Shown here in pieces: positions 45,799 through 49,727 of a DNA stretch of 64,000 nucleotides. Location of the stretch: NCBI RefSeq assembly GCF_036924645.1, contig NZ_JAZHRX010000001.1, positions 5,855,501-5,919,500 of the forward strand. The letters are read 5' to 3'. The translations under genes were made by a program, and so were the position numbers. Positions within the stretch are counted from its first letter, which is position 1; each line of letters begins with the position of its first letter. This stretch comes from Bradyrhizobium sp. AZCC 2176 (GTDB lineage: Bacteria; Pseudomonadota; Alphaproteobacteria; Rhizobiales; Xanthobacteraceae). A model generated the notes under the pieces. The model was not told the DNA's origin. It searched no databases and saw nothing but the letters and a program-made list of their open reading frames with translations.

Positions 45799-46163
45799 TG
45801 GGTTCTCCCTTGAGGGTTATTGTTCTTGCTATGACCCGATGTCGCGAGTCATCCACATACTCGCGCGCTTATTGCAGCGTCCGCACGCGGCGGCAACACA
45901 GGCTTTGTCGGAGCAGGATTGTTTTGGCCAAACGAAGCGCTGTACAGTCGCCATGCTGGCTCGGCTTGCTAGGATATCCGGCTAAATCTTTGATCTAATT
46001 GTAGATATTGATATTCCATAATATACCTTATGCGAATTACAGATATTCGGCTTGGGATCTCGTTTTCCGTCGTTTCTGGATTTACGGCGCCCTGTGCACT
46101 TCAGGTCCAGGAATTTCGCAGCCGGAACGAGATCTAATGTGCTCGACGTTAGACTGAGGGAAC
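45799..46163. other. 365-bp spacer with an A/T-rich patch
   Basis: Lies downstream of the gvp operon and upstream of the TRAP binding-protein gene, both minus strand. Bases about 45985-46050 are markedly A/T-rich against the G/C-rich surroundings and repeat the hexamer GATATT three times. This is the likely TRAP promoter or operator region. No protein-like ORF. Confidence 0.5.
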
Positions 46164-46469
46164 TCAACGCGGAAGCAGCGGACCGAGAGGTCCCAGCTCG
46201 ATATTCAGGTCCTCGGCGGCGAGCCCGAAGTGCTCCCGCAGGCGCGATATGCGGTTGTCTAGAAGCATCAGCGTCATGCCGACGCGCTCCTCCTCCGCTT
46301 CGGTCAAGCCGCCCTCGTCGACACGACGAAGCGCCTGTCGCTCCACGAGCTGACGCAGCAACTCCACGACGGTGAGCACCAGGCGGGCCAGATCTCGTTC
46401 GACCGTGTCAGGCGCCATCGAAATGCGCTGGCGCGGCCCCGGCTCATGTCCAGCGACGCCGGCGCTCAC
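46164..46469 (-). CDS. gvpK: Gas vesicle protein GvpK
   Basis: 101 residues, start GTG at 46469 overlapping the gvpS stop (GTGA); an internal Met at residue 18 is the alternative. GvpK is a small helical protein needed for gas vesicle formation. The recognisable core runs from R-D-L-A-R-L-V-L-T-V-V-E-L-L-R-Q-L near residue 25 through E-R-V-G-M-T-L-M-L-L near 61 and ends near E-D-L-N-I-E-L-G-P-L-G-P-L. Last gene of the gvp operon. Confidence 0.93.
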   Translation of the reverse strand: MSAGVAGHEPGPRQRISMAPDTVERDLARLVLTVVELLRQLVERQALRRVDEGGLTEAEEERVGMTLMLLDNRISRLREHFGLAAEDLNIELGPLGPLLPR

Positions 46470-46663
46470 TGGTCTCGCTCCGCTGCGCCAGATCGCGTGG
46501 TCCGGCCGAGCGACGTGATCAGAGCGCGAAGCGAGATCTGCACCATGTCGATGTCGGCGATCGCCAGCGTGATGTCTCCGGCCAGCACGATGCCACCCGC
46601 CAGGAGCCGGTCGAGCAGGTCGACTAGTGCGACCTCTCGGTCCGGGAACGCGGCGGGGCTCAC
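46466..46663 (-). CDS. gvpS: Gas vesicle GvpA-family minor protein (GvpS type)
   Basis: 65 residues from GTG 46663, preceded by GAGGAG and overlapping the gvpL stop (GTGA). It is a GvpA-fold protein: V-D-L-L-D-R-L-L-A-G-G-I-V-L-A-G-D-I-T and the second helix segment V-Q-I-S-L-R-A-L-I-T-S-L. The A-G-D-I-T-L-A-I-A-D-I-D form differs from the shell protein and matches minor homologues named GvpS, GvpJ or GvpM. A longer frame upstream in the same phase lies inside gvpL antisense-free sequence but is not needed. Position between gvpL and gvpK supports the gvpS name. Confidence 0.85.
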   Translation of the reverse strand: MSPAAFPDREVALVDLLDRLLAGGIVLAGDITLAIADIDMVQISLRALITSLGRTTRSGAAERDQ

Positions 46664-47445
46664 GTGCGCTCCTCGCTGTCGGCGAACGAATAGGGCGGCC
46701 AGGGGCCCGTGATCTCGAGCGTCACGTGCGGGTTTTCGGCGCCCAGCCGCTGTGCACGGGCGGCGAGTTCTTCGGCGCGCCCGGCATCCACCAGGTAGGC
46801 TGCGTTGAATACATTTTCGCCTGGGGCAGCGGACAGCTCGGCGCTCTGCGTTCGGTGTTGGCGGCGATCGACGGCAAGCCCGGCGAGAACGGCGTCCATC
46901 TGCTCGGCCGCAGTGGTTGCGCGCCGCCACGCGTGCTGGCGCCGATCGCGCTGCTCGCGGCGGTTGCGCAGATAGTCCCTGCCCGCGCGCGCCGATCCGG
47001 ACCCGTCGGTTTTCTCAGCCACGGACATGGCGCCGGCAGATGCGCCCGCGTGCTGCACGTAGATCTTCACCCCCACCTCCACGCGGCCCGCGAATCGATC
47101 CAGCGTCTCGCGGAAGCGCCGGTACTCCCGGCGTAGCAACTGCGCAACGCGGTCGTCGGTGCGGTGAACGGTCGCGAGGCGGAACGGCAGCGTTGGTGTG
47201 CACGCGGCAACCGCCGCCACGACCCTGTGGTGCGCGCGTGCGATCACCTCTAGCTCCGCCAGCGTCTCCAGCCTGGCTCGCAGCGCGGTCTCGTCGGCGT
47301 CGGCAGGTGCAAGCGGACTGACCACGGCGACCAGATCTTGGTGGCGGACCAGGTGGATCGCGGCGCCGTCGACGCCGACGAGACCGGCCGCCTGGGTTGG
47401 ATTGAACGGGCGCGCGACCGCGTATGTATAGCTCGCCGTGCTCAT
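46660..47445 (-). CDS. gvpL: Gas vesicle protein GvpL/GvpF family (second copy)
   Basis: 261 residues. GvpF/L proteins line or nucleate the vesicle and bind GvpA. Family landmarks: N-terminal T-Y-A-V-A-R beta strand, H-L-V-R-H-Q-D-L-V-A-V-V-S near residue 31, L-P-F-R-L-A-T-V near 85, and the C-terminal N-A-A-Y-L-V-D and T-G-P-W-P-P-Y-S-F. The middle has a long basic helix, R-N-R-R-E-Q-R-D-R-R. It overlaps gvpJ and gvpS by four bases each. Whether it is called GvpF or GvpL depends on order; it is the copy behind gvpJ. Confidence 0.92.
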   Translation of the reverse strand: MSTASYTYAVARPFNPTQAAGLVGVDGAAIHLVRHQDLVAVVSPLAPADADETALRARLETLAELEVIARAHHRVVAAVAACTPTLPFRLATVHRTDDRVAQLLRREYRRFRETLDRFAGRVEVGVKIYVQHAGASAGAMSVAEKTDGSGSARAGRDYLRNRREQRDRRQHAWRRATTAAEQMDAVLAGLAVDRRQHRTQSAELSAAPGENVFNAAYLVDAGRAEELAARAQRLGAENPHVTLEITGPWPPYSFADSEERT

Positions 47446-47765
47446 CGCCGTGCCTCCAGAGTGGCGGTTTGCAGCGCCCTGACCTGCTTACGCAACCGCG
47501 CGTTCTCGGCCGCGAGCTGCCGCGGCCGAGGCTGGGAAAGCGCCGGATCGTGCTCCCACCAGTCGATCCCCATCGCCTTGGCCTTGTCCACCGACGCGAC
47601 CAACAGCCGGAGCTTGATGGTTAGAAGCTCGATGTCGAGCAGGTTGATCTTGATGTCGCCGGCGATGATCAGCCCCTTGTCCAGAACCCGCTCCAGAATG
47701 TCGGCCAGGTTCGGCGAAGCACCCTGGCGTCCGTGCCACTCCATCATGCGATCAGATTCAATCAT
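47442..47765 (-). CDS. gvpJ: Gas vesicle GvpA-family minor protein (GvpJ type)
   Basis: 107 residues. The GvpA-like fold covers residues about 18-62: L-A-D-I-L-E-R-V-L-D-K-G-L-I-I-A-G-D-I-K followed by D-I-E-L-L-T-I-K-L-R-L-L-V-A-S-V. The extended C-terminus (G-I-D-W-W-E-H-D-P, then a charged helix Q-L-A-A-E-N-A-R-L-R-K-Q) is typical for GvpJ/GvpM-like tip proteins. Two in-frame Met (residues 1 and 7) lie in a direct repeat TCATGCGATCA on the plus strand. Overlaps gvpG and gvpL by four bases. Confidence 0.9.
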   Translation of the reverse strand: MIESDRMMEWHGRQGASPNLADILERVLDKGLIIAGDIKINLLDIELLTIKLRLLVASVDKAKAMGIDWWEHDPALSQPRPRQLAAENARLRKQVRALQTATLEARR

Positions 47766-48013
47766 GCGATCATTCCTCGCTTTCGTCCCTCGTCCAGCCG
47801 GTCGAGGATCTCGTCCTCGCGTCGATCGAATTCCTCGGCATCGATCAACCCTTCATCCAGTTGCCGCGAAAGCTCGGCCAGCTCGCGCCGGATGGCTGCC
47901 GGGCCGCAATGCTGTTCGGCAGCGGCGTCGACGACCCGGTCGATGGTCCACAGCGCGAAGCGGGCCGGCGCGAGCGGCAGCAACAAGACATGCGACAGGA
48001 GTCCCACCGCCAC
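47762..48013 (-). CDS. gvpG: Gas vesicle protein GvpG
   Basis: 83 residues, GTG start at 48013. The family's hydrophobic N-terminus is seen as L-L-P-L-A-P-A-R-F-A-L-W-T-I-D-R-V-V, followed by a charged helix ending E-L-S-R-Q-L-D-E-G-L-I-D-A-E-E-F-D-R-R-E-D, which is characteristic for GvpG. It sits six bases behind gvpF and overlaps gvpJ by four. GvpG is needed for assembly, probably together with GvpF/L. Confidence 0.92.
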   Translation of the reverse strand: MAVGLLSHVLLLPLAPARFALWTIDRVVDAAAEQHCGPAAIRRELAELSRQLDEGLIDAEEFDRREDEILDRLDEGRKRGMIA

Positions 48014-48019
48014 GGCCCC

Positions 48020-48754
48020 TCACACGTCCGCTTCGTTGCCGACGAAGCTGTAAGGCGGCAAGGGCCCGTACAACTCGACGCTTGCGTAGCCGGGCAGCTC
48101 GCGGCGCAGCGGCGACAGGGCACCGTCGAAGTCCGCCCGGGCGCCGGACGCCACCAGGAACGATACGTTGACGAAGCAACCGTCGACCGGCGGGCCCCGA
48201 CGTATCTGCGCGGCATGTGGTTGCAGGCGGGCGATGACCTGGCCTGCGTCACGCGCGCGCCGCTCCGCAACGGCGGCGGCCACGTGCTCGCCGAACGCCA
48301 CCTTGTCCTGGTGGCGGCCGCCGTCTGCGGCGCGAAGTGCGTGATTCCGCGCACGTAACTCGTCGTTCTGAAGCAAGAGGTCGCGGAGAAGGGCTTCCTC
48401 CGCATGAATGCCTTTGACGTTGAGCTCGACATGGCCATCGATCCGGGACAGCAGGTCGCTATAGCGACGCGCCCCCGATCGAAGCTCCGTCTGCACGGCC
48501 TCGTCGTCGGGCGCGACCATCCCGAACCGCATCGGCAGCACGGTGCCGGCTGCATAGATTCGTCCGATGACCGCATCGTGCTTCACCAGATCGCGCCGCT
48601 TCGCGCGCAAGTTCTCCGGCGCGTCGCTAACCACCGCGACGAGATCCTGCTCGCGCACGAGCCGGAGGGCGGGAGCGTGCTCCCCGACCCCCACCGCCCC
48701 TTCGAGCGGTAGTGGGTGGGAGGCACGCGTGAAACAGTAGACGTAGCTGCTCAT
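48020..48754 (-). CDS. gvpF: Gas vesicle protein GvpF/GvpL family (first copy)
   Basis: 244 residues. The opening S-S-Y-V-Y-C-F-T-R-A, then L-V-R-E-Q-D-L-V-A-V-V-S-D-A-P near residue 32, V-L-P-M-R-F-G-M-V near 72, and the ending L-Y-G-P-L-P-P-Y-S-F-V identify a GvpF/L protein. It lies between gvpA and gvpG, the usual place of gvpF in actinobacterial clusters. It shares the general pattern of the second copy (46660-47445), so both are family paralogues rather than a recent duplication. Confidence 0.93.
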   Translation of the reverse strand: MSSYVYCFTRASHPLPLEGAVGVGEHAPALRLVREQDLVAVVSDAPENLRAKRRDLVKHDAVIGRIYAAGTVLPMRFGMVAPDDEAVQTELRSGARRYSDLLSRIDGHVELNVKGIHAEEALLRDLLLQNDELRARNHALRAADGGRHQDKVAFGEHVAAAVAERRARDAGQVIARLQPHAAQIRRGPPVDGCFVNVSFLVASGARADFDGALSPLRRELPGYASVELYGPLPPYSFVGNEADV

Positions 48755-48774
48755 CAGTCATCCTTTCCGTTGCG

Positions 48775-49089
48775 TCAGCCGATTTCCGTGCGCGCCCGGC
48801 CGGGTAGCTCGAGCGGCAGCGCGTTGTCGGGCAGCGAGCGGCCGATCCGGGGGCTGCTGCCGGTGAGATCGAGGCGGCCACACATCTCGGCGAAGCGCAG
48901 GTAAGCATCGACGCCGGCCACGACGACCCGCGCATCGATGGTGACCACCTCGAGGCCGATCACCGACACACGCACGAACACGTCGATGACCAGCCCGCGG
49001 TCCAGGATCAATTCAACGACTTTGTACAGCTCGCCCGACAATCTGCCACCGTTCGCTTGAGGCGTTTGAGTCATTGCTATTCCAGTCAT
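48775..49089 (-). CDS. gvpA: Gas vesicle major shell protein GvpA
   Basis: 104 residues from ATG 49089, which has GGAAGGAG about seven bases upstream. GvpA forms the ribbed gas-filled shell. The core is plain: V-E-L-I-L-D-R-G-L-V-I-D-V-F-V-R-V-S-V near residues 25-43, then I-G-L-E-V-V-T-I-D-A-R-V-V-V-A and G-V-D-A-Y-L-R-F-A-E. It has a longer C-terminal tail than cyanobacterial GvpA, with a Pro/Leu-rich end. First gene of the operon gvpA-F-G-J-L-S-K. An ATG at 49074 is an alternative start. Confidence 0.95.
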   Translation of the reverse strand: MTGIAMTQTPQANGGRLSGELYKVVELILDRGLVIDVFVRVSVIGLEVVTIDARVVVAGVDAYLRFAEMCGRLDLTGSSPRIGRSLPDNALPLELPGRARTEIG

Positions 49090-49098
49090 ACGGTTTGC

Positions 49099-49132
49099 TC
49101 CTTCCGGAAAACACGATCTGTCCTTCCGGAAA
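49099..49132 (-). promoter_or_regulatory. Tandem TTCCGGAA palindromes ahead of gvpA
   Basis: The 12-mer TCCTTCCGGAAA occurs at 49099-49110 and again at 49121-49132, start to start 22 bases, about two helical turns. Each contains the palindrome TTCCGGAA. The gvpA-proximal copy also carries the gvpA ribosome site (GGAAGGA on the minus strand). It could be an operator pair, a translational control site, or a simple duplication. Confidence 0.4.
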
Positions 49133-49727
49133 CTGATACGCGCATAGCTTCGCAATGGTTTCAAAACGAGGACGTAAGCCGCGTCGCCTCGCGCTGCCGC
49201 ATCCGCTCGCCGCCAATTTTTCACTGTCAGCGCAAAGGGTTTCCGTGGGGCCTTTCTGCCGAGGCAGGCATAACGCGGCGCCGCCCGCCGGGCTGCCAAA
49301 ATTGGACTCGAAGGGATCGAGATCCACGGAGCGCATGGTCATCTGCTCCATCAGTTCCCTCGCCCATCGCCAATTACCGTAGTCAGTCGCGTACGGTTTT
49401 AATCGTAAGTTCAAAGATCATGTCGCAGCCAAACTTCCAATCGGGGCGTCGCGCCTTGGCGCTCTCAGGTGGACTCCGATGCAACCAGGAAAATCGGCGG
49501 TTTGACTCGAATGGAACCAGAGTGGACTCGAATGCAGCGGCGAAACAGCCGGTGAACATCTCCGTTTTTTGCTGCCGAGGCTCAGATCCAAACAGAAACG
49601 ACCCGGCATTCCCCAATCTGCATTGGAGCTCGCCGATTTCATCGCTGGTAGGAACCCTGGTTTCCCGCCCACAATGCAGCGTCCAAGCGGCGCCTGGGTT
49701 CGAAGCCGCTGCTACGGGAGGCATGTC
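49133..49727. other. 595-bp region upstream of gvpA and of the M24 peptidase
   Basis: Divergent spacer that should hold the gvp promoter (minus) and the peptidase promoter (plus). The sequence T-GGACTCGAA or a one-base variant occurs three times (49303-49312, 49502-49511, 49523-49532). A minus-strand frame (49013-49414) opens with [19 protein letters not shown], which looks protein-like, but the rest does not, so it may be a gene remnant. No integrase or transposase recognised. Confidence 0.45.

Follow-up and report, generated by a model that had tools for sequence, protein, structure and literature searches.

A 64,000-nucleotide stretch at positions 5,855,501-5,919,500 of the Bradyrhizobium sp. 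AZCC 2176 genome (hereafter, the window) carries what is almost certainly a gas vesicle (gvp) cluster, formed by seven core genes in a genome where neither gvpN nor gvpO was found. With a probability of roughly 40%, we read it as a horizontally acquired, operon-like cluster of Streptomycetaceae type whose product would be tiny GvpA-walled vesicles that do not serve flotation. The seven open genes, as read from the open reading frames of the window, run in the order gvpA-F-G-J-L-S-K on the minus strand, from 49089 to 46164:

48775..49089, minus strand: gvpA, shell protein, 104 amino acids (aa), stop codon at 48775-48777; PF00741, 34.5 bits (cut-off 25)
48020..48754, minus strand: gvpF, 244 aa; PF06386, 206 bits
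47762..48013, minus strand: gvpG, 83 aa, GTG start; PF05120, 80.6 bits
47442..47765, minus strand: gvpJ, minor GvpA-fold protein, 107 aa; PF00741, 57.7 bits
46660..47445, minus strand: gvpL, GvpF/L family, 261 aa; PF06386, 200.3 bits
46466..46663, minus strand: gvpS, minor GvpA-fold protein, 65 aa, GTG start; PF00741, 52.4 bits
46164..46469, minus strand: gvpK, 101 aa, GTG start; PF05121, 115.7 bits

The seven proteins all scored above the curated Pfam cut-offs, so that the hidden Markov model search bore out the GvpA, GvpF/L, GvpG and GvpK identities proposed in a preliminary description of this DNA. Its coordinates, with seven genes on one strand and four overlaps, were exact, each overlap measuring exactly 4 bases (G/J, 47762-47765; J/L, 47442-47445; L/S, 46660-46663; S/K, 46466-46469). 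GvpF/L, GvpG, GvpK and two further GvpA-fold proteins thus stand in a single operon-like run, with gaps of 20 bp between gvpA and gvpF and of 6 bp between gvpF and gvpG. None of the seven proteins reached an NCBIfam curated cut-off, the nearest for GvpA being PRK09368 (113.6 vs 151). GvpA also gave the lowest PF00741 score of the three GvpA-fold proteins. Its core could be aligned with no gap to two shell proteins of solved structure, sharing 32 of 56 residues with 7r1c and 27 of 55 with 8gbs (the Bacillus megaterium and Anabaena proteins). PF00741 matched three proteins in the 7,146,351-base single-contig genome, every one inside the cluster. No other family appeared among the seven genes in the Pfam search, and no search aimed at GvpC was made. 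The frames were open over their aligned length in all 11 compact clusters of this type found in Bradyrhizobium, without a single frameshift, in the six accessory genes as well as in gvpA, for which a frameshift check had been proposed. The codon at the position of the window's gvpG start is ACG in loci L030 and L031 and that at the gvpJ start is AAA in L022, L026, L030 and L031, so gvpG in the former two and gvpJ in the latter four must start elsewhere; gvpG of L024 encodes 78 aa vs 83 in the window.

GvpO (PF05800) had no match in the 7.15-Mb genome of the strain itself nor in any of the 10 relatives with the compact cluster (0/11), whereas it was present in 61 of 61 other gvp-bearing genomes. 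These came from two controls, one of 21 gvp-bearing genomes (11/11 with other cluster types positive, 0/10 with the compact type) and another of 50 further genomes, all positive (44 from the family of Streptomyces genome G647 and 6 alphaproteobacteria); 60 of the 61 also carried gvpK, the Mycobacterium genome G651 having been chosen by gvpL alone. A gvpO remnant upstream of gvpA was rejected as a candidate, since the best tblastn E values (1.5 over four upstream stretches and 1.7 in the window) were at chance level. For GvpN (TIGR02640), the genome of the strain gave generic matches only (best 46.6 bits vs a cut-off of 266.8). In a survey of 29 genome handles at E<=1e-20, GvpN was found in 0/11 compact-cluster genomes and in 13 of the 18 other handles, equivalent to 11 of 16 distinct genomes: 2/2 long Bradyrhizobium clusters, 7/8 other alphaproteobacterial handles, 4/4 further proteobacterial handles (two of them duplicating genomes among the 8 alphaproteobacterial ones) and 0/4 actinobacteria. 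The cluster had been called complete-looking; this holds for the seven core genes, which are intact, and not for the set as a whole, because gvpO, the first gene of the order then cited, is missing and so is gvpN. In the excerpts of published papers on which we draw here and below, the minimal B. megaterium and Haloferax sets have in common the shell protein, F, G, L, K, J and a similar S/M protein and differ by N and O, the Haloferax set holding O and the B. megaterium set N (PMC11223475). The Bradyrhizobium cluster is therefore their shared part alone. GvpN has been listed as conserved in all gvp clusters, and GvpC as conserved, yet the table of the same paper shows Streptomyces coelicolor without N, and clusters lacking one of the two genes are known (Streptomyces without N; Serratia, cyanobacteria and Bacillus without O; PMC9501494). 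No cluster lacking gvpN and gvpO together was described in the literature searched, most subscription papers being outside its reach.

Sequence comparisons point to an actinobacterial ancestry of the compact cluster as very probable. Among 47 outside loci (two genomes counted twice), the best match of each of the seven proteins was in Streptomycetaceae, six of them in the plasmid clusters of Kitasatospora NBC_00039 (L185) and Streptomyces NBC_01435 (L186) and GvpK in Streptomyces tateyamensis. Identity to the Streptomycetaceae proteins was 61-62% over 70-81 residues for GvpA and 61-73% for GvpJ. In the plasmid collection, GvpL matched five records, actinobacterial without exception (best 45.9%), and GvpF nine, among them three Streptomycetaceae (42-45%), Octadecabacter (31%) and haloarchaea (29-30%). 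The best match outside Bradyrhizobium in a sample of 398 Pseudomonadota genomes reached 28% (E 1.7e-15). Since the outside loci were partly picked by GvpL similarity, actinobacteria were over-sampled; the plasmid searches and the Pseudomonadota sample pointed in the same direction. In trees, GvpF and GvpL were sister to plasmid Streptomycetaceae L185/L186 (Shimodaira-Hasegawa-like approximate likelihood ratio test, SH-aLRT, by a quick method, 97 and 95, respectively), and GvpK grouped weakly with them (bootstrap/SH-aLRT 94/71), while A, G, J and S were placed by best match only. Earlier trees had left GvpF unplaced and joined GvpK to the long-branch row L129. For the final ones, L185 and L186 were added and 14 loci were dropped, along with 8 of the 11 rows of compact clusters and any match no longer than 60 (K) or 150 (F/L) residues. 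The dropped loci were the long-branch L129 and L057, L047 and L067 (same genomes as L126 and L125) and near kin of kept rows (L052, L058, L060, L061, L062, L064, L066, L070, L071 and L073). After this resampling of loci the F, L and K trees agreed. Thus, the phylogeny that had been suggested as a check sides with the Streptomycetaceae, and the gvpOAFGJLSK-like order noted at the outset matches that of their plasmid clusters. On the simplest reading, an actinobacterium would have been the donor and gvpO would have been lost or not carried over, and the long branch suggests that the donor lineage is unsampled. Reverse transfer would be less likely, because these clusters occurred in 47 of the 81 Streptomycetaceae genomes sampled (counted by GvpK in the G647 family) but in only 13 of 265 Bradyrhizobium genomes.

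Those 13 Bradyrhizobium genomes were likewise identified by GvpK (PF05121), and 11 of the 265 carried the compact cluster (the strain itself and 10 relatives), with 87-100% protein identity in best local alignments. GvpK was present in 8/397 genomes of the order sample, 3 being compact Bradyrhizobium, and in 4/385 of the class sample, including the strain itself. The named carriers, Bradyrhizobium sp. CSA112, B. valentinum LmjM3, LMTR 3, B. algeriense RST91 and B. murdochi WSM 1741, agree with the initial impression of a Bradyrhizobium-like genome. We presume that B. valentinum, B. algeriense, B. murdochi and LMTR 3 are legume nodule isolates of dry land. Genomes G085 and G100 carried a different, long gvp cluster with 24-61% identity to the compact set. 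These long clusters (L033 and L032, respectively) contain gvpN and gvpO and branch apart in the trees, which makes at least two entries of gas vesicle genes into Bradyrhizobium probable. Such genes had been reported from bradyrhizobia before: strain ORS278 holds them on an acquired island that also contains phycocyanobilin genes, and ORS375 carries gvpF/L (PMC3899966). Among papers pairing gas vesicles with Bradyrhizobium or rhizobia, judged mostly from listings, we noticed no further treatment of gvp genes in rhizobia.

Comparison with relatives devoid of gvp genes delimited the segment carrying the cluster:

approx. 46050..49605, no strand: insertion of ~3.5 kb carrying the seven genes, bounded by reference to empty sites in gvp-less relatives

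Of eight such relatives, picked via the M24 peptidase flank, six presented clean empty sites, in which window positions 46038-46052 are joined to 49602-49620, and two held other inserts. Both flanks are common to the window and 7 of the 10 relatives with the cluster (L025 with a gap), L028 shares the right flank only, and L030 and L031 carry the cluster elsewhere. The flanking genes encode DctP and DctM/DctQ transporter components, an AMP-binding enzyme, an M24 peptidase, a rhodanese, an enoyl-CoA hydratase and major facilitator superfamily (MFS) proteins, with no gas vesicle family among them. No convincing target duplication was seen among direct repeats bounding the insertion, and a 19-base inverted pair (46048-46066 / 49163-49181, 79% complementary) may be due to chance. 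Inspection by eye showed two other cargoes at the DctP/M24 peptidase site, a 170-aa glycine-rich membrane-like protein (L022, L024, L025, L027 and L167) and an ATP-binding, HerA/FtsK-like protein of ~500-525 aa (L023, L167 and L168), as well as a threonyl-tRNA synthetase-like gene just past gvpK in L030 (8500-10346) and L031 (11202-13000).

Across the window and the seven syntenic relatives, the synonymous divergence (dS) of the gvp genes was 0.048 vs 0.27-0.49 in six flanking genes, that is, a fifth to a tenth, with fewer sequences available for some flanking genes (5 for the MFS gene and 7 for DctP). Constraint on synonymous sites was ruled out as the source of this low value by the equally similar non-coding DNA within the unit, whose pooled identity in 8 relatives was 95.2% on the right and 91.6% on the left, counting aligned bases alone (on the right, 188 to 509 of the 510 positions). 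Non-coding identity was 81.1% in the left flank (45799-46045; 7 relatives) and 91.5% in the right-flank stretch 49603-49646, which makes the right edge less sharp. In these strains, the gvp unit is either of more recent origin than the DNA around it or has been homogenised. The gvp tree of seven clusters was nearly congruent with the flank tree, and the unit edges nearly coincided in the seven relatives with both flanks; site-specific entry, gene conversion within the unit and lineage-biased transfer are therefore all possible, while the congruence argues against free or simple recent transfer.

The pooled ratio of nonsynonymous to synonymous divergence (dN/dS) of the seven genes was 0.350 (95% interval 0.292-0.425; 977 codons, 11 clusters), the interval coming from codon resampling, which ignores relatedness. 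Among the single genes, F had the lowest value (0.26) and S the highest (0.51), with an interval for S alone that extended above 1. The gvp genes are under moderate purifying selection and are less constrained than their neighbours, and recent divergence may inflate their dN/dS. It is improbable, on these data, that the cluster is recently spread passenger DNA, still intact, of little or no use and heading for loss. The patchy distribution in 11 of 265 genomes, the empty sites, a site that accepts other cargo, the low synonymous divergence and a dN/dS well above that of the flanks would fit such a fate; the pooled interval below 1 and the open frames of all seven genes in the 11 clusters, including L030 and L031 at their other location and at a dS of about 0.15 from the window, do not.

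The 5′ leader of gvpA (49090..49140, minus strand) contains two TTCCGGAAGGA repeats at 49099-49131, 22 bases apart, and a ribosome-binding site likely lies inside the gvpA-proximal copy. Both copies are kept in 7 of the 10 relatives; L028 has one base changed in the distal copy, whereas in L030 and L031 only the proximal copy is present, with a single substitution. The pair is a possible operator or a duplicated ribosome-binding region. One terminator-like site was found vs 2.2 expected. Short GACTCGAA-type repeats occupy 49300-49545, between gvpA and the peptidase gene, and seem variable among relatives (uncounted); they are possibly traces of the movement of the unit.

Regarding the product, we propose that GvpF, G, J, L, S and K would form a nucleation complex on which GvpA would polymerise into a ribbed shell. 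Growth would halt at small bicones for want of the AAA+ protein GvpN, and the absence of GvpO would mean either that it is dispensable in this lineage or that the cluster is expressed and nucleates in another way. The result would be a small number of tiny vesicles with GvpA walls, unable by their size to lift a soil cell and retained for a stress-related or other cellular role. Serratia gvpN mutants produce small bicones and do not float (PMC4982088), and Haloferax makes tiny vesicles without N and none without O (PMC9501494). In Frankia, which also forms nodules, gvpA and gvpF were lost in strains thought to be obligately symbiotic, which was read as a free-living trait, and flotation on the soil water table was suggested (PMC9956245). 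These reports, together with those on Streptomyces, lead us to rate tiny vesicles or a role without gas above flotation. Ordinary full-size gas vesicles for buoyancy in waterlogged soil or water appear very doubtful: the seven core families are present and gas vesicle proteins have been reported in bradyrhizobia of aquatic legumes (PMC3899966), but gvpN, without which vesicles do not elongate in Haloferax, Serratia and B. megaterium, was not found in any of the 11 genomes, and the phycocyanobilin genes described on the ORS278 island do not lie beside the compact cluster. The earlier idea of a standing-water habitat has no support.

Several observations weigh against our reading of tiny vesicles from an acquired cluster. 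Haloarchaea require GvpO (PMC9501494), and electron microscopy showed no vesicles in B. megaterium lacking GvpN, even if the figure legend assigns N to elongation and not to formation (PMC11223475), so the seven-gene set may make nothing. Gas vesicles have not been seen in S. coelicolor, which has gvpO (PMC4982088, PMC5839063). Six neighbouring genes showed dN/dS values of 0.036-0.167, which the gvp genes exceed 2 to 10 times; no sigma-70-like promoter was found vs 0.5 expected; and the G+C content at third codon positions of the gvp genes (0.77-0.83 vs 0.78-0.85 in the flanks) carries no foreign signature. For actinomycetes in general, one paper names them among gas vesicle producers, and its combination screen in Escherichia coli, including S. 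coelicolor genes, gave vesicles by transmission electron microscopy in two combinations only, both with B. megaterium accessory genes (PMC12081810). It is possible, if on the unlikely side, that the proteins are made without enclosing gas, and that those of the GvpA-fold or GvpF/L type have another role, for example in coping with osmotic stress or in storing nitrogen, as has been proposed for Streptomyces. The nearest relatives are in Streptomyces and Kitasatospora; disruption of gvp in S. coelicolor left buoyancy unchanged, salt induced gvp and a nitrogen store was proposed (PMC5839063); and N and O are both missing while the amino acids are constrained. Against such a role, GvpA keeps a gap-free shell core, and the seven genes stay together in 11 of 11 clusters, which fits the assembly of a structure. 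Returning to a GvpA-walled product, we suggest tentatively that this is a natural core-only system of terrestrial root-nodule bacteria, in which seven proteins assemble a nucleus or bicone walled by GvpA, with or without gas inside, in the absence of GvpN and GvpO, and that the set circulates in Bradyrhizobium as a discrete unit of ~3.5 kb entering one chromosomal site.

The published minimal sets of B. megaterium and Haloferax are set apart by two proteins, GvpN and GvpO (PMC11223475), and a conserved natural cluster without both lets the sufficiency of the shared seven-gene core for nucleation be asked directly. The compact cluster is also a very small cassette for acoustic reporters. Moreover, it extends the puzzle of gas vesicle genes in the soil to a second bacterial group and offers a trackable transfer between phyla.

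Among known systems, the long alphaproteobacterial clusters, including those of Bradyrhizobium G085 and G100, have the GvpA-fold, F/L, G and K families in common with the compact cluster but differ in their extra F/L copies, in gvpO (all tested), in gvpN (all but G996) and in their separate branches. The Haloferax/Halobacterium essential set gvpAOFGJKLM shares A, F, G, J, K, L and an S/M-type protein; there, gvpO is present and essential, and natural clusters also contain C and N (PMC9501494). The B. megaterium minimal set gvpBNFGLSKJ likewise combines a shell protein with F, G, L, S, K and J (PMC11223475), but includes gvpN and has another gene order. The S. coelicolor cluster is gvpOAFG-JLSK (PMC9501494), and L185 reads O-A-F-G-J-L-S-K. 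Streptomycetaceae plasmid clusters keep gvpO directly before gvpA (PF05800, 119-120 bits) and their G and J do not overlap, in contrast to the Bradyrhizobium cluster, which is without gvpO and has a 4-base G/J overlap. Otherwise, the Streptomycetaceae gvpOAFGJLSK clusters present the same A-F-G-J-L-S-K order with 4-base overlaps at J/L, L/S and S/K, the actinobacteria tested are devoid of gvpN (0/4) as is the compact cluster, and the Kitasatospora NBC_00039 set shows 43-65% protein identity to the Bradyrhizobium compact set.

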